Shown one piece after another: positions 4,620-57,926 of a stretch of 64,000 nt of DNA. Origin of the DNA: Acinetobacter lwoffii (GTDB taxonomy: Bacteria; Pseudomonadota; Gammaproteobacteria; Pseudomonadales; Moraxellaceae); the NCBI RefSeq assembly GCF_019343495.1, contig NZ_CP072552.1:1-64000 (forward strand). The letters are read 5' to 3'. The position numbers and the translations under genes were made by a program. Under the pieces are notes generated by a model. It was given only the letters and a program-made list of their open reading frames with translations, did no database searches and was not told the origin of the DNA. How positions within the stretch are numbered: the first letter of the stretch is position 1; each line of letters opens with the position of its first letter.

Positions 4620-5021
4620 TATGGGTTCGCTCGGTATAACTCCTGTCATACCTTACAGTCCTTGTGCGTATCGTTGTTCTTATTATTGTGTAGAACTTCC
4701 TGTTCCTGATGAATCCATCATAGAAAAATTTCAGGCACCTGGACAGCCGCAAAGGGCCGGAATTATTGTGAGCATATGCGTACAAGACCGGCTAAAAACT
4801 GTCCCAGGTTTATCCGCAGAAATTGGGGATAATTTCATATCCTGGAAGCTTGATAACGAGGAAAAAATGCCAAAATTGAGCGTTTTTTAGTCGATTCTAT
4901 TGGCTAAACATTACAAATTTGCTTAAAAAACACACGAGTTGTTAAGTCGTGCGTTTTTTGATCTTTTTGATTTTGTGTTTTTAAGCTTAAGTATTTGATA
5001 AATAATGGCTTTTAAAAATGC
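4620..5021. other. Gene-poor stretch, no supported gene
   Basis: An open frame crosses 4576-4890, but it begins inside the terminator at 4588 and resembles no family I recognise, so it is not called. A terminator-like hairpin (arms around cacga / tcgtg inside A and T runs) lies near 4926-4960. The pdif site at 5022 marks the right edge. Confidence 0.5.
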
Positions 5022-5049
5022 ATTTCGTATAACGACCATTATGTTAAAT
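5022..5049 (+). other. pdif site (C/D orientation), spacer cgacca
   Basis: The XerC half is atttcgtataa, the spacer cgacca and the XerD half ttatgttaaat. It forms the left edge of the module holding the copper-storage-like gene; the right edge is the inverted site at 5704. Confidence 0.9.
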
Positions 5050-5301
5050 AGAGGGAAAATCTATTTTTAAAGTGATAAAATTATTGCAGTTATTTTAAGA
5101 ATAGCTGCTTTTGATACTTGATCATCTATCCTAATTAAAAACTGTTTTTTAATAATTTGGAATATAAATAAGATTTAGTTAAAATTAACATTATTCATAT
5201 AAATTAACATTATGTATTACATTTACTAATAATTTAAAATAATTAGTAGAAAAAAATTATGTTTTAATTATTTCTTTGATTATATAAGTTGAGAGTAAAA
5301 A

Positions 5302-5761: not shown

Positions 5762-6011
5762 AGTCTTTAATTCGCTTTTTCGCTTCGTCATAAACTATGC
5801 TATCAGCTCGTTTTCCGACGGTAATGAGCAGGATAACTACCTGATCATATTTAACTTGATAGACAAGTCGGACACCAGCTTTTAATAATTTGATTTTATA
5901 GCAACCTGCAAGATCGCCTCTAAGCATATTCTTTGGAATATGTGGCTGCTCTATGACTTTGGCTAGTTTCTTTTTAAATTGATCTCGTATAGCAACAGGG
6001 AGTTTTCCCAT
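5760..6011 (-). CDS. RelE/ParE-superfamily toxin
   Basis: 83 residues. The RelE-type pattern is visible: an N-terminal AIRDQFKKKLAKV helix, then LRGDLAGCYKIKLLKAGVRLVYQV and VVILLITVGKRADSIVYDEAKKR. This matches mRNA-cleaving RelE/YafQ-like toxins. It lies 30 bp downstream of the antitoxin gene, in the usual relBE order, within a pdif-bounded module. It probably stabilises the plasmid. RelE and ParE proteins look alike at this level, so the target (mRNA or gyrase) is inferred. Confidence 0.85.
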   Translation of the reverse strand: MGKLPVAIRDQFKKKLAKVIEQPHIPKNMLRGDLAGCYKIKLLKAGVRLVYQVKYDQVVILLITVGKRADSIVYDEAKKRIKD

Positions 6012-6041
6012 TCTGCTGTAAAGTCCTTGTGACGTAAAAGC

Positions 6042-6287
6042 TTATAAGTCATCTAATGTGACTTCCTCAAACATCTCTTTAGGATCATTAATGCGCTTAC
6101 GGACAAGAGCTAATAATTCTTCATCTTCTTCCGAAAGCAAAGCTTTTTTGACAGGCAGTTTCCCAGTCGTAGCAACATACTCAAGAATACTAGTGAAGAA
6201 ATCAGTAGGTGCAATACCTTGCTCTTTAAGGATTGAATAAGATTTTTCTTTAAGGGCTTCATCGATCCTGAAGTTAACAGTAGCCAT
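6042..6287 (-). CDS. RelB/DinJ-family antitoxin
   Basis: About 81 residues from the preferred ATG at 6287, which has gggaa at a suitable distance; the longer frame begins with TTG at 6299. The N-terminus MATVNFRIDEALKEKSYSIL is the ribbon-helix-helix domain of the DinJ/RelB family. The acidic C-terminus (EEDEELLALV...EMFEEVTLDDL) would wrap the toxin. It probably represses its own promoter through the palindrome at 6321-6343. An insertion sequence lies directly upstream, but the palindrome is intact. Confidence 0.85.
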   Translation of the reverse strand: MATVNFRIDEALKEKSYSILKEQGIAPTDFFTSILEYVATTGKLPVKKALLSEEDEELLALVRKRINDPKEMFEEVTLDDL

Positions 6288-9223: not shown

Positions 9224-11021
9224 GTCCAGCTCCTTTTTGCTCAGTTACTTGGTGAGTTTGAGTCGAATTTGTACCTTGAATTGGCGTTGTAGACACTTGT
9301 TCATCGCTAACATTTGCCACGATCAACTTGTTCATCATTCCTGCACTCATGTGATACAACAAATGACAATGGATTGCCCATTCGCCCAACTCATCCGCAG
9401 TTAATAAAGCAGTCACTGTTTTACCCGGTGGTACAATCAATGTGTGTTTATTCGGCATATCTACCGACTCTTGACCATTCTCCAACTGCATAAACATGCC
9501 ATGTAAATGCATGGGGTGCGCCATCATACTGTCATTAATAAATTTGATACGGATACGCTCGCCATACTTCACTTTTAATGGCTCAGCATCGCTGAATTTT
9601 TTACCGTTAATCGTCCAAATATAACGCTCCATAGTACCGCCCAAACGCACTACTAATTCACTGCTAGCTTCACGAGTATCTTTTTGCGGTTCTAAAGATT
9701 TTAAATCACTATATTGCAAGGCTTTATTGCCCGCAGGTGTAGATGCATTTGCCCAACCATAAACCACTTGATCATTTTCTTGTGGTTTTGCTGTGCCATG
9801 CTGTGAATGATCCATTTTCGAGTGATCCATGCCTTGCATATCGCCATGGTTCATTTTTGAATGATCCATTTTCGAGTGATCCATGCCTTGCATATTGCCG
9901 TGGTTCATTTTCGAATGATCCATTCCTGCATGATCACCGCCACCATGTCCCATATCTTCCATGGTCAAAAGTGAGCGTGGACGTGGTGCAGGCATATGAA
10001 TGCCATGTGTCATAGGATTTAATTCATTGTGCAGTGTACCAATCGCATAGCCTGCACGGTCAATTGACTCAGCTTCAATTTGATAATGTCCGCCTTTTGG
10101 CTCCACAATCACATCATAAGTTTCAGCTGTGCCAATACGAAACTCATCCACAGCAACAGGTTTTACAGGCTGACCATCAGCACTGACCACAGTCATTTTC
10201 AAGTTAGGAATACGGACATCGTAGAAAGACATCGCAGATGCATTCACAAAACGTAGGCGAATTTTTTCATTCGGTTTAAACATTCCTGTCCAATTTTGTT
10301 CAGGTGTTTTGCCATTAATGAGGAAGGTATAACCTGTAACATCCGACATGTCGGTTTTTAGCATACGCATCTGATTCCACATTTTGCGGTCAGACCATGT
10401 CGCTTTTATGCCATCACGTTTAACCTGCTTCCAAACATCACCCAAGGTTTCACGCTGATTTTGATAATATTCAGCTGAAATTTTAAGATCTTTCTGAATT
10501 TGATCACTGGTTTTTTCATGAAAATCTGACAACATCACCACATAGTCACGTTCAGCTTTTTCATGTGCTGCCAATGGTGTTTTACCTTTTGGATAAATCA
10601 CAAAAGAACCATATAAGCCGTCCTGTTCCTGTCCTTTAGAATGAGCGTGATACCAATAAGTCCCGCTTTGGCGAATCTTGAATTTATAAACATACTCGCT
10701 TTGAGGCTTAATACCGTTAAAACCATTAAATCCCGGTACACCATCCATAATGCCCGGCAACAACAGTCCGTGCCAATGAATAGAAGAATCTTGGTTTTTT
10801 AAATTATTTTTCACGCGAATGATGGCTTCATCACCCTCTTCAAACTCAAGCAAAGGCGCAGGAAATTGACCATTTACGGTAATGCGCTTTACAGGCTTTC
10901 CAGTTGGGCTGACCACTGCTTCATCAATAACAAGCTGATATTCACGCACTTCGGCAAAAACCAAAGGCGACGATGCAAAACAAATACCTGCTAATAGGTA
11001 CGAACTAATTTTATGAGACAT
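9210..11021 (-). CDS. copA: CopA/PcoA periplasmic multicopper oxidase, copy 1
   Basis: 603 residues, the usual PcoA length. A signal peptide (SHKISSYLLAGICFASSPLVFA) is followed by three cupredoxin domains. Copper ligands are visible: HWHG and HAHSKGQEQDG near the N-terminus, and HPMHLHGMF and HCHLLYHMSAGM near the C-terminus. A Met/His-rich insert of GMDHSKM and MNHGDMQG repeats lies in the second half. The enzyme is expected to oxidise Cu(I) or bind copper in the periplasm. The C-terminus (AGHAHH) overlaps the next gene. A second, diverged copy is at 43087-44910. No CopR-like box was found upstream. Confidence 0.95.
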   Translation of the reverse strand: MSHKISSYLLAGICFASSPLVFAEVREYQLVIDEAVVSPTGKPVKRITVNGQFPAPLLEFEEGDEAIIRVKNNLKNQDSSIHWHGLLLPGIMDGVPGFNGFNGIKPQSEYVYKFKIRQSGTYWYHAHSKGQEQDGLYGSFVIYPKGKTPLAAHEKAERDYVVMLSDFHEKTSDQIQKDLKISAEYYQNQRETLGDVWKQVKRDGIKATWSDRKMWNQMRMLKTDMSDVTGYTFLINGKTPEQNWTGMFKPNEKIRLRFVNASAMSFYDVRIPNLKMTVVSADGQPVKPVAVDEFRIGTAETYDVIVEPKGGHYQIEAESIDRAGYAIGTLHNELNPMTHGIHMPAPRPRSLLTMEDMGHGGGDHAGMDHSKMNHGNMQGMDHSKMDHSKMNHGDMQGMDHSKMDHSQHGTAKPQENDQVVYGWANASTPAGNKALQYSDLKSLEPQKDTREASSELVVRLGGTMERYIWTINGKKFSDAEPLKVKYGERIRIKFINDSMMAHPMHLHGMFMQLENGQESVDMPNKHTLIVPPGKTVTALLTADELGEWAIHCHLLYHMSAGMMNKLIVANVSDEQVSTTPIQGTNSTQTHQVTEQKGAGHAHH

Positions 11022-12899: not shown

Positions 12900-13217
12900 C
12901 TATTCATTTGATTCATTTGATTCATTTGATTCATTTGATTCATTTGATTCATTTGATTCATTTGATTCATTTGATTCATTTGATTCATTTGATTCATTTG
13001 ATTCATTTGATTCATTTGATTCATTTGATTCATTTGATTCATTTGATTCATTTGATTCATTATTTTTAACTTGTTTTTGTTTAGAATTTTCAACTTTAGA
13101 AGCTTTTAAATTCTTTTCAAGAAATAACAAGCCGCCATCTGCATAACTAAAACTTGCGATACTAAAGAATGCACTAATTAACAGTAATTTAGTACAAAAT
13201 TTATTTTTGAATAGCAT
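12900..13217 (-). CDS. Secreted protein with ADGGLxFLEKNL motif and a 17-fold Asn-Glu-Ser tail
   Basis: 105 residues. The N-terminus (MLFKNKFCTKLLLISAFFSI...SFSYA) is a signal peptide. The mature protein starts ADGGLLFLEKNLKASKVENSKQKQ and then consists of 17 NES triplets plus NE. This tail is encoded by a 9-bp tandem repeat. The gene follows czcD on the same strand after 203 bp. A second, tail-less member of the same kind lies at 30409-30537, again beside a czcD sequence, and both share an upstream palindrome. I do not recognise the family. The secreted acidic and polar tail could bind metal or mediate surface interaction, but that is speculation. Confidence 0.75.
   Translation of the reverse strand: MLFKNKFCTKLLLISAFFSIASFSYADGGLLFLEKNLKASKVENSKQKQVKNNESNESNESNESNESNESNESNESNESNESNESNESNESNESNESNESNESNE
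12901..13062. repeat. 9-bp tandem repeat (gattcattt) encoding the NES tail
   Basis: About 17.7 near-perfect copies of a 9-bp unit, read as AAT GAA TCA on the minus strand. Since 9 is a multiple of 3, copy-number changes alter tail length without shifting the frame. Confidence 0.9.
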
Positions 13218-24943: not shown

Positions 24944-26041
24944 TTATTCTGAAAATTTTTTAGTATTAATTTCTTGTAGATAAGTGAAGATCTCATCTAC
25001 TGTAGCTCTCGCTGTTCTAGAAACGCCAATTAATGTTGCAGATGCCATACCTGTCCAATCTCCATATCCAACTAACCACAAGTTAGGTAACTTAATAGAC
25101 CTTCCATTTTGAACTTCTACAAAGTTATCTCGCTCTACTATATCTATACTTTTTAGATGATTTAATGAAGCCTTAAATCCAGTACACCAAATAATCACAT
25201 CAATTTTCTCTTTTTTTCCATCTGGCCAAATAACTGCATCTGTAGCTAAAGATTGAAAAGGTGGACGGCTATGTAAGACTCCTCTATTCCTTGCCTCTTT
25301 GACACTATCGATCATCACAATATCACCTAGGCCACCTATTGGCTGGTCAACTTTTCTTCCTTCTTGTTGTACTTTTAAACGCTCAGTTGCTCTTAAAAAC
25401 AGTACTCGACCATCGACATCATCAGGTAAAAATTGAGGCGGAGTTTTTGTGACCCAAATGGTTTCAGCAACTTGTGAAACCTCAGCGAGTATTTGCGCGC
25501 CCGAATTCCCCCCACCCACCACGATGACTTTCTTATCTTTAAATGAATCTGCATTCAGGTAATGGGCTGAATGTAACTGCGTGCCTTGAAAGTTTTCCTG
25601 TCCCGGATAATCAGGAATAAACGGCTGGCGCCATGTCCCTGTTGCACTGACCACCACCTTGGCTCGCCAAAACTTTTCTCCAGCATATACGTCTAAATAC
25701 TTTCCCTTCGATTCCACACGATCGACATGTACTGGACGAACAATCGAAAATTGATATCTCTGTTCATAAGCCGATAAATACTGGATCACCTCATTTCGTG
25801 TTGGATAGGTCTGTTCAGTGATGGGCATCATCCAACCGGATAGAGAACTCCAGGTATTAGGAGAAAAAAGACGCAATGACTCCCAGGTATGCAGCCAGGC
25901 ACCCCCCGCTTGATTTTGCTCATCCAATATAATGAATGGGATTTTCTTGCGCTTTAAAAAATAAGCGGTAGATAAAGCGGCCTGCCCACCACCGATAATG
26001 ATCACATCAGTTTCAGTCTGTTTCTGGTTCAAAGCCTTCAC
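24944..26041 (-). CDS. arsO: ArsO-like flavin-dependent monooxygenase
   Basis: 365 residues starting with GTG at 26041, preceded by aaggaaaa. FAD binding is shown by DVIIIGGGQAALSTAYFL near the N-terminus and NADPH binding by KVIVVGGGNSGAQILAE in the middle; a C-terminal DVIIWCTGFKASLNHL matches the family. It resembles the putative monooxygenases (ArsO) found in ars operons with ArsH and Acr3. Its substrate is not firmly known. It is last in the operon, 158 bp after arsH, with a terminator-like hairpin between them. Confidence 0.8.
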   Translation of the reverse strand: MKALNQKQTETDVIIIGGGQAALSTAYFLKRKKIPFIILDEQNQAGGAWLHTWESLRLFSPNTWSSLSGWMMPITEQTYPTRNEVIQYLSAYEQRYQFSIVRPVHVDRVESKGKYLDVYAGEKFWRAKVVVSATGTWRQPFIPDYPGQENFQGTQLHSAHYLNADSFKDKKVIVVGGGNSGAQILAEVSQVAETIWVTKTPPQFLPDDVDGRVLFLRATERLKVQQEGRKVDQPIGGLGDIVMIDSVKEARNRGVLHSRPPFQSLATDAVIWPDGKKEKIDVIIWCTGFKASLNHLKSIDIVERDNFVEVQNGRSIKLPNLWLVGYGDWTGMASATLIGVSRTARATVDEIFTYLQEINTKKFSE

Positions 26042-50886: not shown

Positions 50887-51546
50887 GGGCGTAAACCCGA
50901 AAAGCTGATGCGGATCAATGCCCAATTGGAAAACTTTGTCGAGTATGACTAGGACGATACCAATTTAAATAAGGCAGAATTCCAGAAACATACCTCACAA
51001 TACAAATATCTGTACAACAACGTCCGTGTGGTCCAGCCTAAAGACAAAGTATCGGTCCTCAATGATGTCAATTTCCAACTGGAACTGATCCACCGCGATA
51101 CCGTGAATGTCGGTTATATCCTGAATTTACTGCAATCGGTGGTCAATCATAAAGATCCAGAAAAGAAACAACAGTATCGTTCCCAAGTGCAAGATATCAT
51201 CTCGACCAACCACAACTTGTATGACAAACAAGAGCTGATTCAAAAGTTTCTGGATGAAAACATTCCACGCATGGCCGATGGTCAAAGCGTTGAACAAGCC
51301 TTTGTTCAGTTTTGGGATGTGGAGAAAGAAAAGGCACTGAATGAGCTGTGTCAAAAAGAAGCCATCAAACCTGAAGTCTTCAAAACGGTGCTCAGCCAAT
51401 ATGAATACACCCAGCGTCTACCTAGCCGGGAAGATGTCAAAGACTTACCGATTGCTCGCCCTAAGATCTCAAAACGTAAGACCATGATGAATACCCTGGT
51501 TCTCAAAACTCGAAACTTTATTGAAAAGTTCTATCGAGGCTTATAA
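50887..51546 (+). pseudogene. hsdR remnant (C-terminal end of a type I restriction subunit)
   Basis: An in-frame series reads KPEKLMRINAQLENFVEYD, then a TAG at 50950, and continues KAEFQKHTSQYKYLYNNVRVV and onward to KTRNFIEKFYRGL. This resembles the C-terminal helical part of HsdR, which contacts HsdM. The ATPase and nuclease parts are missing and the stop breaks the frame, so it cannot restrict DNA. No hsdM or hsdS is near. A terminator follows at 51558-51586. Confidence 0.75.
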
Positions 51547-52249: not shown

Positions 52250-52317
52250 TTGATGAATCGTCTTTCCTCTTTTGTAGCAGTTGAAATTAGAGTAAACGCT
52301 ATAAAAGAGGAAAAATT

Positions 52318-52438
52318 GGCAGTGTTGTAAATAGCTTTTCAGCTAAAGGTTCAATAGATGAATCACTTCCATAGTCGGCATCATCTTTGGGGCGAAATCA
52401 TTCTTTGGGCTGTGCGCTGGTATTGTAAGTATGGCAGT
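52318..52438 (+). pseudogene. IS6-family transposase fragment
   Basis: It begins ggcagtgttgtaaatagc, like an IS6 end, and after 40 bp reads MNHFHSRHHLWGEIILWAVR then WYCKYG. This aligns with the start of the intact transposases (MNPFHGRHFQGEIILWAVR). It stops where the 183-bp repeat array begins. Confidence 0.8.
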
Positions 52439-52460
52439 ATAGAAAGAGTTTTACATCACA

Positions 52461-53811
52461 TCACTCTCTTCAGGATTACACAAGTTCATAAGTTGCGTAA
52501 GTTATGTAACTTTATAATTTAATATTCCTGGCAGATTAATCCCAGGCAGTTCTTCTCATTAGATGGATCCTTAGTTTTCAGCACTGCACTTCCATATATG
52601 GACAAATCCCTGACAAGCATGACCGGGAGAGGTTTCCATCTCATCACTCTCTTCAGGATTACATAAGTTCATAAGTTGCGTAAGTTATGTAACTTTATAA
52701 TTTAATATTCCTGGCAGATTAATCCCGGGCAGTTCTTCTCATTAGATGGATCCTTAGTTTTCAGCACTGCACTTCCATATATGGACAAATCCCTGACAAG
52801 CATGACCGGGAGAGGTTTCCATCTCATCACTCTCTTCAGGATTACATAAGTTCATAAGTTGCGTAAGTTATGTAACTTTATAATTTAATATTCCTGGCAG
52901 ATTAATCCCGGGCAGTTCTTCTCATTAGATGGATCCTTAGTTTTCAGCACTGCGCTTCCATATATGGACAAATCCCTGACAAGCATGACCGGGAGAGGTT
53001 TCCATCTCATCACTCTCTTCAGGATTACATAAGTTCATAAGTTGCGTAAGTTATGTAACTTTATAATTTAATATTCCTGGCAGATTAATCCCGGGCAGTT
53101 CTTCTCATTAGATGGATCCTTAGTTTTCAGCACTGCACTTCCATATATGGACAAATCCCTGACAAGCATGACCGGGAGAGGTTTCCATCTCATCACTCTC
53201 TTCAGGATTACATAAGTTCATAAGTTGCGTAAGTTATGTAACTTTATAATTTAATATTCCTGGCAGATTAATCCCGGGCAGTTCTTCTCATTAGATGGAT
53301 CCTTAGTTTCCAGCACTGCGCTTCCATATATGGACAAATCCCTGACAAGCATGACCGGGAGAGGTTTCCATCTCATCACTCTCTTCAGGATTACATAAGT
53401 TCATAAGTTGCGTAAGTTATGTAACTTTATAATTTAATATTCCTGGCAGATTAATCCCGGGCAGTTCTTCTCATTAGATGGATCCTTAGTTTTCAGCACT
53501 GCACTTCCATATATGGACAAATCCCTGACAAGCATGACCGGGAGAGGTTTCCATCTCATCACTCTCTTCAGGATTACATAAGTTCATAAGTTGCGTAAGT
53601 TATGTAACTTTATAATTTAATATTCCTGGCAGATTAATCCCGGGCAGTTCTTCTCATTAGATGGATCCTTAGTTTTCAGCACTGCGCTTCCATATATGGA
53701 CAAATCCCTGACAAGCATGACCGGGAGAGGTTTCCATCTCATCACTCTCTTCAGGATTACATAAGTTCATAAGTTGCGTAAGTTATGTAACTTTATAATT
53801 TAATATTCCTT
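52461..53811. repeat. 183-bp tandem array (7.4 units), candidate centromere
   Basis: Units start at 52461, 52644, 52827, 53010, 53193, 53376, 53559 and 53742 (partial), exactly 183 bp apart. They are nearly identical, with a few variants such as cactgca/cactgcg. Each holds a 27-bp motif made of three 9-bp steps (cataagttg, cgtaagtta, tgtaacttt) and a 12-bp palindrome, tccatatatgga. The motif occurs eight times (first at 52487-52513). It matches, in reverse, the site over the parA start. No frame crosses a unit with support. Confidence 0.92.
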
Positions 53812-53964
53812 ATAGATCAGCTGCTAACCGTTCATGTAATAGCCTTCCAATTAAAATGGACACTTCTCAATAAAGACCAAATTATAGAATTAGGGTTACC
53901 AAGACAGACTAAATTTTTTTCTATAGGTTAGTAGTGTTCAAAATAAGAATTTCTATTATTCAGG
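53812..53964. other. Short spacer between the array and repB
   Basis: AT-rich. No gene or hairpin was recognised. Confidence 0.4.
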
Positions 53965-54912
53965 TTATGATAACTTTTCTGATTTATATTTTTCTTTATA
54001 GCCCACTTTTAACAAATCAGGATAATACTTTTTTACCTTTTCAGGGTCGAGAAGTTCAAGTGAAATCCTTTCTTTAAACGCTTCGATCTCTTCACCTACA
54101 TTGGCATATTTTCCCCCGAATTCGGGATATTTGATAAGGTCACACAATTTTTGAGCGAAAAATATAGATTGTTTTGGTGTCAACTGATATGTCGGTTCCA
54201 GTACCTTATCACTAACAATTAAGGAAGCTTTTTGATTAAAAGAAAATTCGATATGTGTAATTGTTCTTCCTTCTTTTTTCTGCTCATAACTTACGTCGAT
54301 ATCAGTAAGTTTATTAATTTGATCTATGGCAACCGTCAATACACGCTTTTTAAAATCGCCCATGGTTTTATATTCATTTTCAAGTAAACCTAACTTATCA
54401 CGCAATTCAACCATACTAATATATAGCTTGCCTTTGCTACGCCATCTAATCAAAAGTTCATACAGCCGTATAGCGTATACGCTAGATAATTGAGAAATTT
54501 GCTTTAATTCATAACGGGTAAATTTTTCTTCAAGTTTTACAAAAAGCTGTAAAATATCAGGAGCAAAAATTAGTTGAGCGCATGCAGCTTCTTTAACATA
54601 GCCAACTTTTGATACCCAACGGCTTTTGTAGACCGCTGGCTTACCTGTAACAGGATCTATGGCCTTATAGGTGAGTCTACGTTCAAACAAGTTATCACAC
54701 GCTCCCTGAAGAGCCTCATAGGCCGCTTGACGACCCAAATTAAAGTGCTTCATGTATTCAGATGCATGTATTGTTAGCAAGGTATCCGATGTAAGCTCTT
54801 TTTCAATTTCCCTAGCTGCAATAATCGCAACTAAAATTAAGCGTTGTTCAGACAAAGTCAACGCATAAGATGCTTCAATCAAGTTATTATCTTTATAAAT
54901 TAGATTTGCCAT
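53965..54912 (-). CDS. repB: RepB replication initiator (Rep_3 superfamily)
   Basis: About 315 residues from ATG 54912 (MANLIYKDNNLIEASYALTLSEQRLILVAI), the start that fits the family; the frame reaches 54954. Two winged-helix domains of the Rep_3 type are visible: IEASYALTLSEQRLILVAIIAAREI first, then YELKQISQLSSVYAIRLYELLIRWRSKGKLYISMVELRDKLG. It binds the iterons at 54987-55115 and starts replication there. It is transcribed away from parA across the origin. Confidence 0.93.
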   Translation of the reverse strand: MANLIYKDNNLIEASYALTLSEQRLILVAIIAAREIEKELTSDTLLTIHASEYMKHFNLGRQAAYEALQGACDNLFERRLTYKAIDPVTGKPAVYKSRWVSKVGYVKEAACAQLIFAPDILQLFVKLEEKFTRYELKQISQLSSVYAIRLYELLIRWRSKGKLYISMVELRDKLGLLENEYKTMGDFKKRVLTVAIDQINKLTDIDVSYEQKKEGRTITHIEFSFNQKASLIVSDKVLEPTYQLTPKQSIFFAQKLCDLIKYPEFGGKYANVGEEIEAFKERISLELLDPEKVKKYYPDLLKVGYKEKYKSEKLS

Positions 54913-54986
54913 ATTGTGATTAGAGAAACAAATATCATTAATGGACATTAACACTTAATGACCATTAATGGAAGATCTATTTATGC

Positions 54987-55115
54987 CAGGAAAACGTCCA
55001 TTTATATCAGGAAAACGTCCATTTAAATAAAGGAAAATGTCCACTTATTGTCAGGAAAACGTCCATTTAAATAAAGGAAAATGTCCACTTATTGTCAGGA
55101 AAACGTCCATATAAA
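54987..55115. repeat. Six iterons of the replication origin
   Basis: 22-bp direct repeats (the first spaced 21) starting at 54987, 55008, 55030, 55052, 55074 and 55096. There are two alternating kinds, caggaaaacgtccattta and aaggaaaatgtccactta. They are the expected RepB binding sites. Confidence 0.92.
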
Positions 55116-55215
55116 TCCTCTGAGAATTAGACTACATAAGGCATACAAAGGTCCTATAAATATAAATTTAAAAATATATATAAAATTAAAAAAGAGCATT
55201 ACTTGTGGATAACTT
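54987..55215. other. Origin of replication (oriV)
   Basis: The iterons are followed by an A+T-rich region (55145-55200) and a perfect DnaA box, ttgtggataa (55203-55212). Iterons, AT-rich stretch and DnaA box beside repB form a standard iteron origin. Confidence 0.88.
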
Positions 55216-55281
55216 TATTTTTTAACTTTATTTTTCACAATAGTTGATTCAGGAGATTGAAACTTGTACATTGTTTTTAAC

Positions 55282-55308
55282 AAAATTACGTAACTTACAT
55301 AACTTATG
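55282..55308. promoter_or_regulatory. parA operator candidate overlapping the start codon
   Basis: Read on the minus strand, this 27-bp site matches 23 of 27 positions of the motif in each 183-bp unit (cataagtt, taagtta and gtaa blocks conserved). It ends with the parA ATG. It is probably where the partner protein represses parAB. Confidence 0.7.
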
Positions 55309-55944
55309 ATTATTTTAGTAGGTGGTGAAAAAGGCGGAGCTGGTAAAAGCTGCCTTGCCCAAAACTTAGCGGTTTATTTACAAAAAAAGAATAGAGATGT
55401 TCTTCTTCTAGATGCAGATCCTCAAGGTACAACTACTGACTGGATTAAAGAGCGTGATGAGAATGAGGATTTAAAGAATATTCCATCTGTACAAGCTTCA
55501 GGCAATATTCGTCAAGTTTTAAAAGATTTATCAAAAAGATATGAAGATATTATCATTGATGCTGGTGGGCAAGATTCGGAAGCATTGCGTTCTGCTATGA
55601 CTATAGCAACACATATGCTATTGCCTTTTAGGCCTAAACGTAGAGATCTAAAGACTTTGGATCATATGGAGCAAGTATTAAAACTGGCGCGAGCAGTGAA
55701 TCCAGATTTGAATGCAAGAGCAATCATTACACAATGCCCAACATTACCGTCACAAGTACAGCGAATTCTAGATGCTAAAGAAGCCTGTATATCGTTCGGA
55801 ATAAAAGCCTTAGACCAAATTACGACAAATCGAAATGTTTATGATGATGCAGATGAAAATGGCCTATCTGTTTTTGAAGTAACAAGTGATTTTAAAGCAA
55901 AAGCAGAAATTGAAGGGATAGCTCAAGAGTTTTTAGGAGTATAA
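55306..55944 (+). CDS. parA: ParA-family partition ATPase
   Basis: 212 residues, the short type (Ib) without an N-terminal DNA-binding domain. The deviant Walker A is GGEKGGAGKSC at residues 6-16, with the lysine at K9. Later motifs VLLLDADPQGTTTDWI and YEDIIIDAGGQD are typical. It moves plasmid copies apart on the nucleoid. It starts directly at the end of the operator site without a clear ribosome site. The small parB-like gene follows after 2 bp. Confidence 0.93.
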   Translation: MIILVGGEKGGAGKSCLAQNLAVYLQKKNRDVLLLDADPQGTTTDWIKERDENEDLKNIPSVQASGNIRQVLKDLSKRYEDIIIDAGGQDSEALRSAMTIATHMLLPFRPKRRDLKTLDHMEQVLKLARAVNPDLNARAIITQCPTLPSQVQRILDAKEACISFGIKALDQITTNRNVYDDADENGLSVFEVTSDFKAKAEIEGIAQEFLGV

Positions 55945-55946
55945 CT

Positions 55947-56246
55947 ATGGCAGGTCTTAGCGGTTTAAAAAAGAAAACTGACGAGCTTTCAGATCAGGAT
56001 AAACTGGTTGAAAATTTCATATCTGGAGCTGATAAAAGAGTTAAGGATCTAGAAGTTTCACAAAAGAAATTCGTTCGTTGTACCTTTTCTTTAAACCAAG
56101 AATTAAGTGAATTAATTGATGAGCTAATTATCAAAAGTAATAACGCTCGTGTTAACAGATCTAGTATTGTAAGAATAGCTTTAGAGTCACTGGCAGAGCA
56201 GAATTTAGAAGATTTTAAGCAGCTGATTGATAAAAGTTTTAAATAA
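55947..56246 (+). CDS. Small ParB-like centromere-binding protein
   Basis: 99 residues, 2 bp after parA. The N-terminus is Lys/Asp-rich (SGLKKKTDELSDQDKLVENFI) and could contact ParA. The C-terminal half (KKFVRCTFSLNQELSELIDELIIKSNNARVNRSSIVRIALESLAEQ) has a ribbon-helix-helix pattern. Type Ib systems use such small proteins to bind repeats in the centromere and the par promoter. The 183-bp array and the parA operator share the motif it likely binds. Confidence 0.8.
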   Translation: MAGLSGLKKKTDELSDQDKLVENFISGADKRVKDLEVSQKKFVRCTFSLNQELSELIDELIIKSNNARVNRSSIVRIALESLAEQNLEDFKQLIDKSFK

Positions 56247-57107: not shown

Positions 57108-57926
57108 GGCACTGTTGCAAATAGAGATTTGAGTCGATGATGTTTCCTTTAAAAAGTACTTAGAGACCGAAAACCCTGTTGATTAGACACACTTCACCCT
57201 GAGGCTGACCATAATAAAATGACGATGCTTGTCCTTTACGTAGTGCACGCATGACTTCAATACCTTTAATTGTGGCATAAGCCGTCTTCATAGATTTGAA
57301 TCCTAATGTGGCCCTGATGATCCGCTTTAGCTTGCCATGATCACATTCAATCACGTTATTTTTATACTTAATCTGCCTGTGCTCAAGGTCTGGTGGACAT
57401 TTACCTTCCCGTTTTAACCGTGATAAAGCACGTCCATATGTGGGTGCTTTATCCGTGTTGATCACTTGTGGAATTTGCCACTTCTTCACATTATTTAAAA
57501 TTTTTCCAAGAAAACAATATGCTGATTTGGTATTACGTCTAGAAGAAAGATAAAAATCAATGGTATCGCCACGTTGATCGACTGCACGATACAGATAAGA
57601 CCATCGTCCATTCACTTTTACATAGGTTTCATCAATATGCCACGAGCTCAGATCTGTAGGATTACGCCAATACCAGCGTAAACGTTTTTCTATTTCAGGA
57701 GCATAACGTTGAACCCAACGGTAAATAGTCGTGTGATCAACATTCACACCCCGTTCGGCCAGCATTTCCTGCAGTTCACGATAGCTAATGCCATATTTAC
57801 AATACCAGCGCACAGCCCAAAGAATGATTTCGCCCTGAAAATGCCGACCATGGAAAGGATTCATATGCTGCACCTTTAGCTAAAACAGTCTTCAGCTTAC
57901 CATTCGTGGTTATTTGCAACAGTGCC
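57108..57926 (-). mobile_element. IS6-family element (IS1006/IS1008-like), copy 3
   Basis: 819 bp, apparently the same as copy 1. It is flanked by a perfect 8-bp target repeat, attgaaac, at 57100-57107 and 57927-57934. This marks a simple, fairly recent insertion into the IS3-family orfA. Confidence 0.95.
57160..57873 (-). CDS. IS6-family DDE transposase, copy 3
   Basis: 237 residues, identical to the copy at 11812-12525. It has the same helix-turn-helix (GISYRELQEMLAERG), DDE residues (HIDETYVKV, VINTDKAPTYG, NNVIECDHGKL) and C-terminus (CLINRVFGL). It is intact, with target repeats on both sides of its element. Two identical copies allow homologous recombination with deletion of either arc of the plasmid. 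Confidence 0.94.
   Translation of the reverse strand: MQHMNPFHGRHFQGEIILWAVRWYCKYGISYRELQEMLAERGVNVDHTTIYRWVQRYAPEIEKRLRWYWRNPTDLSSWHIDETYVKVNGRWSYLYRAVDQRGDTIDFYLSSRRNTKSAYCFLGKILNNVKKWQIPQVINTDKAPTYGRALSRLKREGKCPPDLEHRQIKYKNNVIECDHGKLKRIIRATLGFKSMKTAYATIKGIEVMRALRKGQASSFYYGQPQGEVCLINRVFGL

Follow-up and report, generated by a model that had tools for sequence, protein, structure and literature searches.

In plasmid P1, the iterons of incA lie downstream of repA, limit copy number, and are separate from parS. In the F plasmid, incC consists of five RepE iterons downstream of repE and limits copy number (accessible text of PMC13028717), and the centromere lies apart, in an array of twelve 43-bp repeats (accessible text of PMC6238139). 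On chromosome II of Vibrio cholerae, rctA holds an inhibitory initiator site (39-mer) beside parS2-B, and ParB2 counteracts the inhibition (PMC3688505 and PMC6090056, as far as their accessible text goes). At the omega/delta parS of pSM19035, a ribbon-helix-helix (RHH) protein acts on short repeats, direct or inverted, arranged in runs that overlap promoters, among them the promoter of the copy-number gene copS, and full activation of ParA needed at least four contiguous repeats (accessible text of PMC9499535). The ParF–ParG–parH system of TP228 also has an RHH partner, with repeats in both the operator region and the centromere (accessible text of PMC5016525). None of these systems interleaves replication-control iterons with a centromere in a single array. 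We found no description of a natural interleaving of iterons with centromere sites in the open-access literature, outside which most subscription papers lie, nor is it mentioned in the accessible text of PMC7315799, PMC6863613, PMC11142715, or PMC7885321. Each half of such an arrangement is already known; the interleaving is what appears, from print in open access, to be new.

The array described here, on an Acinetobacter-type plasmid, lies in a 64,000-nucleotide stretch of Acinetobacter lwoffii DNA (positions 1 to 64,000 of contig NZ_CP072552.1, assembly GCF_019343495.1), which was analyzed as a whole and is called the window. Tandem Repeats Finder reported a repeat with a period of 183 bp at 52445–53810 (7.5 copies, 98% matches, no strand assigned), and a DNA search of the organism's own genome found seven complete 183-bp units plus a partial one of 85 bp, every one of them inside the array. 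An earlier sequence-only reading had described the same seven full units and one partial; its array start of 52461 is corrected to 52445. The 27-bp motif CATAAGTTGCGTAAGTTATGTAACTTT that it had reported recurs eight times by motif search, with no mismatches and at exact 183-bp spacing, on the + strand at 52487–52513, 52670–52696, 52853–52879, 53036–53062, 53219–53245, 53402–53428, 53585–53611, and, in the partial unit, 53768–53794. The motif had been parsed as three 9-bp steps, and a 9-bp run is indeed present, but it is only part of a slightly longer cluster: 7 of the 8 units contain four TAASTT cores at spacings of 8, 9, and 9 bp, the extra core lying 8 bp upstream of the 9-bp-spaced run, and the first unit contains three.

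The sequence-only reading was right about the par-type motif and overlooked a further conserved element that every full unit carries. This element is a single 22-bp RepM-type iteron, GTCAGGGATTTGTCCATATATG, in the opposite orientation to the step clusters. The seven boxes, located both by an iteron model and by pattern search, lie on the − strand at 52593–52614, 52776–52797, 52959–52980, 53142–53163, 53325–53346, 53508–53529, and 53691–53712, and they alternate with the eight step clusters. A repeat search paired each full unit with an origin iteron at 82% (seven pairs). Judged by sequence, the boxes at 52593–53712 would place iterons outside the minimal origin and downstream of rep, with several bases unlike those of the origin iterons. 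The seven full units differ from one another at seven positions, all outside the 27-mer and the 22-bp box.

The gene beside the array (53965–54954, − strand) encodes a Rep_3 replication initiator by profile matches; the annotated start in relatives such as L009 (L numbers denote the loci compared) is 42 bp further in. It had been called repB; the product matches NF038290 at 382 bits (cutoff 250) as well as Rep3_N and Rep3_C, and the name is corrected to RepM. An inverted repeat at the start of repM (54936–54970, no strand assigned), found by repeat search, is perhaps a Rep operator. Six origin iterons of about 22 bp, detected by repeat searches, lie between repM and parA (54985–55115, + strand). 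A possible parA promoter, TTGATT-17-TACATT (55244–55272, + strand), was read by eye, has 8 of 12 consensus bases, and is absent from the promoter-scan output. The parA operator (55282–55308, − strand), recovered by repeat, motif, and pattern searches, carries the step motif of the array and, as had been claimed, agrees on the other strand with 23 of the 27 positions of the 27-mer, the remaining four being mismatches.

The parA gene itself (55306–55944, + strand), identified by profile and structure-sequence searches, encodes a small partition ATPase of 212 residues with a Walker motif at its start and no N-terminal DNA-binding domain, as expected of a type Ib (ParF/ParG-like) ParABS system. 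It scores 136 bits against NCBIfam ParA_partition, below the cutoff of 180, and its best solved match is ParF (4dzz, residues 7–210, E 4.3e-16). Behind it lies a gene for a 99-residue RHH-type protein (55947–56246, + strand), the presumed binder of the step clusters, recognized from a weak profile match and a predicted fold. This protein scores 19.5 bits against RHH_1, below the cutoff of 20.5, and 5 of 15 aligned members of its family match RHH_1 and 4 match RHH_3 at E 0.01. The top four fold matches of its predicted monomer (mean pLDDT 78.7, pTM 0.48) are RHH proteins with Foldseek E values above 4; the model appears closest to RHH chains of ParD, PrpA, and Reg576, with no match significant, and no ParG or omega chain is among the fold matches listed. 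No RHH chain occurs among its solved sequence relatives (three matches to E 1 with the single sequence, five to E 1 with the profile). The RHH assignment thus draws mainly on weak profile matches, the location of the gene behind parA, and the step code. In L017, a run of six 8-bp repeats, CATAACTT, lies downstream of the RHH gene, and in the same place in L061 are two runs of AAGTTATG, each of 7.1 copies (9954–10010 and 10221–10277); both loci thereby show what appear to be extra par-type sites.

The proposal that the 27-bp motif is a candidate site for the small RHH-type protein gains support from comparison. In 44 of the 44 loci with parA mapped, a run of steps (TAASTT-type cores, 9 bp apart) lies upstream of the parA start and within 60 bp of it. 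Five loci with distant RHH proteins (L032, L054, L055, L056 from Moraxella, and L057) likewise have step runs at the parA start and around the parA–RHH genes, with 13 steps immediately upstream of parA in L055. The iteron box of the array was found in none of these five, in which the initiator is a different protein, a distant relative of RepM, or encoded outside the stretch examined. This pattern is consistent with a simple par system whose sites may have become interleaved, in the RepM lineage, with iterons downstream of repM.

The locus resembles F incC in that both have initiator iterons downstream of the rep gene, and RepM matches the RepE model NF010305 (116.7 bits, below the cutoff of 342), but incC holds iterons with the centromere apart, whereas the window's array alternates both kinds of site. 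P1 incA shares the position downstream of rep and differs in the separation of its iterons from parS. With rctA, as described in the accessible text cited above, the shared feature is a replication-inhibiting initiator site next to a centromere site, a segregation protein counteracting the inhibition in rctA; that case, however, involves one pair of sites, a spreading ParB, and a chromosome, compared with up to a dozen or more alternating sites and an RHH-type protein here. The pSM19035 sites differ in being 7-bp WATCACW heptads with copy-number coupling via transcription, and the accessible text of PMC9499535 does not mention interspersed initiator sites; against the four-repeat need in that system, the window has four cores in 7 of its 8 clusters, one of them at 8-bp spacing. 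The likeness to TP228 lies in the ParF match of the window's ParA, and the difference in parH, which adjoins the par operon and for which the accessible text of PMC5016525 does not mention initiator iterons.

The array had been interpreted as a probable centromere. The match of its step clusters to the parA operator speaks for that reading, but "centromere" alone is incomplete because RepM iterons lie between the clusters and the position downstream of rep is that of F incC. From the sequence elements and their specificity, conservation, and co-occurrence, all directly observed, we infer that the array is a composite cis-acting maintenance locus (probability about 0.7), which would combine incC-like replication control with an RHH centromere through binding, an effect on copy number, and partition. 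The RHH protein would bind the step clusters, repressing parA from its own operator, and would assemble on the array a partition complex to be moved by the ParF-like ATPase. RepM would bind the interspersed iterons and would be both titrated and paired with origin iterons, by handcuffing or looping, and this titration and pairing would lower copy number and cause incompatibility, as incC does in F. Sharing one array would let the two processes interfere, for example if RHH complexes limited RepM pairing, and the relief of initiator-site inhibition by V. cholerae ParB2 (accessible text of PMC3688505) makes such mutual interference plausible. A bolder extension, which we regard as rather unlikely, makes partition the release step of replication control: RepM would pair sisters on the very array that ParA pulls, and segregation would then mechanically undo handcuffing and license the next round of replication. 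A natural alternating array makes the coupling of replication and segregation in low-copy plasmids directly testable.

To locate both elements in the organism's own 3.53-Mb genome, we searched with short patterns and their reversed controls. The two-step par pattern TAASTTRYRTAASTT matched at 18 sites, more than expected by chance: 16 lie in the array, and the parA start accounts for the other 2, which overlap, so that 18 of 18 fell in the repeat shared by the par operator and the presumed centromere; the reversed pattern gave 7. Of the 10 matches to the iteron core GTCAGGNNNNNGTCCA, 7 lie in the array, 2 lie in the origin, and the last is on contig C1; its reversal gave 1. A looser two-core scan of the window found, besides the array and the parA operator, one two-step match at 25080; the contig beyond the window was searched for steps with the stricter TAASTTRYRTAASTT only. 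These results bear on a reading in which replication control came first, the iterons acting as incC while the steps merely regulate or titrate the RHH protein and a working centromere lies elsewhere, in the parA operator or in 8-bp runs. The place of the array downstream of repM, like that of incC in F (accessible text of PMC13028717), agrees with this reading, as do the runs of 8-bp period that L017 and L061 have on the downstream side of the RHH gene. We nevertheless think it unlikely, as the 300 bp downstream of the window's RHH gene contain two single cores and no 8-bp run, and the step runs in the window besides the array amount to the parA operator and the match at 25080, with the rest of the contig covered by the stricter pattern.

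The same genome encodes RepM relatives: one on contig C6 (49% identity), one on C5 (50%), and a more distant one on C3 (29%). The rep regions of C6 and C5 have 22-bp repeats beside the rep gene and no RHH gene, and we found no step run, no box of the present type, and no long-unit array downstream of rep in the whole of C6 or in 13 kb of C5 around the gene. Because the origin iterons of C6 and C5 have another sequence, the absence of this box is expected, and the missing long-unit array is the informative part.

Among 72,556 plasmid records, 17 contain the 183-bp unit, all from Acinetobacter and all in rep_cluster_1072 (L009–L025 plus two wrap-around pieces). Relatives of the RHH protein are more widely found, in 171 plasmid records and, counting the organism's own genome, in 13 of the 60 Acinetobacter genomes sampled. 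Loci retrieved through the RHH protein rather than the array had arrays of other unit lengths downstream of repM: 178 bp in 12.1 copies (L029), 368 bp in 10.3 (L030), 344 bp in 7.1 (L031), 138 bp in 2.3 (L042), 157 bp in 6.5 (L043), 164 bp in 4.9 (L045), and 344 bp in 12.6 (L062, from the Acinetobacter genome sample). The L031 unit has matches in 101 plasmid records, and in 99 of these the match spans at least 80% of the unit; the L029 unit is found complete in one record and as a 79-bp piece in six, and the L043 unit matches none in the plasmid collection. Composite arrays are present in 17 + 101 + 1 plasmid records (183-bp, L031, and L029 units, respectively; the sets may overlap). In these comparisons, one plasmid is represented by both L036 and L015, another is split into two pieces, L026 and L018, and L023 and L024 showed the same pattern. 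Array-bearing plasmids include carriers of resistance genes, with blaOXA-58 in L024 and aac(3)-IId in L028, and the array is a likely determinant of maintenance and incompatibility in this group of Acinetobacter plasmids.

Both elements occur together downstream of repM. All 35 loci with at least 1 kb in that direction have at least one iteron box and at least one step cluster there, and 17 of the 35 were retrieved by the RHH protein and not by the array (among them L036, the L015 plasmid). Across 42 loci, the stretches of up to 4.5 kb downstream of repM totaled 152 kb and contained 222 iterons (1.46 per kb) and 231 step clusters (1.52 per kb), compared with 6 (0.017 per kb) and 11 (0.031 per kb), respectively, in 352 kb elsewhere outside the origin; L018, L027, L032, and L033, all four with no RepM match in the piece examined, are excluded from this count, as are L054 and L055. 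Contig ends leave less than 600 bp downstream of repM in 7 of the 42 loci, and four of these (L034, L040, L046, and L050) are without one or both elements.

An iteron weight matrix derived solely from origin iterons (70 distinct 22-mers among 238 instances from 41 origins) found the box in 13 of 13 array units, one taken per array from six spacer families, and in each unit 0 of 300 dinucleotide shuffles scored as well. The L043 unit, an arbitrary pick, showed no step run in this test, its operator score being equaled by 72 of 300 shuffles, yet the whole L043 array contains seven step runs; the operator model came from nine sequences, one of them a wrong stretch from L031, where ParA was matched in part. 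In the window's family the array boxes point the opposite way from the origin, and in the other families they point the same way. They also differ in sequence from their own origin iterons, having centers of the ATTTG or ATYYG type in the window's family, L043, and L045 (compared with AAAACG or AAAATG at most origin iterons) and GTCCAC or GTCTAC in L028, L031, and L053 (compared with GTCAAC, again at most origin iterons). The distance from the end of a box to the next step run in the window's family was 58 bp in 69 of 129 cases and mostly 56–59 bp, with a range of 41–82 bp plus two cases above 1 kb, and it was about 32 to 129 bp across families in the loci listed. This spacing is unequal both between families and within the window's family and thus implies no fixed contact.

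We also measured conservation in the window's family within 123 step-to-step gaps of 100–200 bp from 20 loci (62 distinct), which were picked without reference to the iteron. The exact 20-mer ATATGGACAAATCCCTGACA is present in 62 of the 62 distinct gaps, and mean conservation was 1.000 in the box and 0.849 in the remainder of the gap, ranking the box first of 138 windows. The test covers gaps of 100–200 bp; four longer step neighbors fall outside it (L012 twice, L038, and L039), and no iteron was found between them, including step clusters 336 bp apart in L012. Among 361 neighboring pairs in 27 plasmids, 324 alternate, 24 are iteron–iteron, and 13 are step–step, but copies within one array are near identical by tandem duplication, so this count is not independent evidence. 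Three consecutive iterons occur in L009, stretches with two iterons per cluster occur in L030, L031, and L053, and the repM-proximal ends of the L022, L025, and L035 arrays are long step runs without iterons, expanded to 8, 22, and 11 steps, respectively.

Step runs of this pure kind, together with those beside parA in the distant relatives and the match of the step clusters to the parA operator, are what one would expect if the array were the parS of the RHH protein and nothing more, with the iteron-like boxes as spacer. That explanation is distinctly unlikely, however, given that the box is the most conserved 22 bp between steps, is recognized as an iteron by a model that draws on origin data alone, and is present in all six spacer families. 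These families were obtained from 19 units with both elements masked, and no match between families was found at E 1e-3. Either composite units arose repeatedly, or old arrays lost their spacer similarity while keeping both elements, and either course points to selection on the two elements. A functionless tandem duplication of a chance composite unit would account for the near-identical copies within one array, as recent duplication predicts, but is very improbable, because both elements occur in the same place in six dissimilar spacer families with the box selectively conserved and no such array accompanies the two same-cell RepM relatives that are without an RHH gene.

Other identities for the array were considered and rejected. 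A coding function is suggested by a period divisible by three, but no open reading frame of at least 60 codons overlaps 52445–53810 and other families have periods that include 178, 157, 164, and 344 bp; no gene is listed under the 183-bp unit in 17 of 17 plasmid matches, in a source table of protein genes only. No Rfam match at gathering score falls in 52300–55400, arguing against a structured RNA, and the promoter scan gave three promoter-like sites in 52400–55400 compared with 12.2 expected, none of them within the array. With the XerC/D pdif pattern in the accessible text of PMC6863613, the window has 11 matches at up to two mismatches, none of them in 52445–53810. The number expected in the window at this threshold is 0.81, and eight matches are exact (5024, 5706, 7837, 11576, 47689, 48722, 48826, and 49301), which suggests dif modules.

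Isolated pieces of the system occur in other records. L058 (NZ_CP094557.1) has at about 4995–5080 a lone composite unit, a two-step run plus an iteron, that is 82% identical to the L029 unit over 79 bp, in a plasmid record with no detectable match to RepM or the RHH protein; five further records have a similar piece. The stray unit may be a remnant, or a hitchhiker that uses the maintenance proteins of another plasmid, and it adjoins a 245-bp tandem repeat of 5.3 copies in which our scan found neither element. In L033 (pIC001A), a 66-residue open reading frame at 5971–6171, upstream of a large tyrosine-recombinase gene, resembles residues 11–58 of the RHH protein, with the rest of the DNA-binding domain missing; similar partial matches lie in H86 and at G003:C5:84587-84724.

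At the left edge of the window's array, 52358–52477 appears to encode the N-terminal part of an IS6-family transposase (MNHFHSRHHLWGEIILWAVRWYCKYG...), continuing into the array; the family was assigned by reading, and a 237-residue relative is encoded at 57160–57873. Farther to the left, an open reading frame at 51028–51546 matches EcoR124_C, the C-terminal domain of a type I restriction R subunit, and type I system genes are annotated upstream of the array in L022 and L023. Two perfect short-period repeats were also seen: a 9-bp tandem repeat, ATTCATTTG, of 17.8 copies at 12902–13061 of the window, and a 12-bp tandem repeat, TAGTCAGTTCAG, of 24.9 copies at 5279–5577 of L059, the organism's own contig C6.
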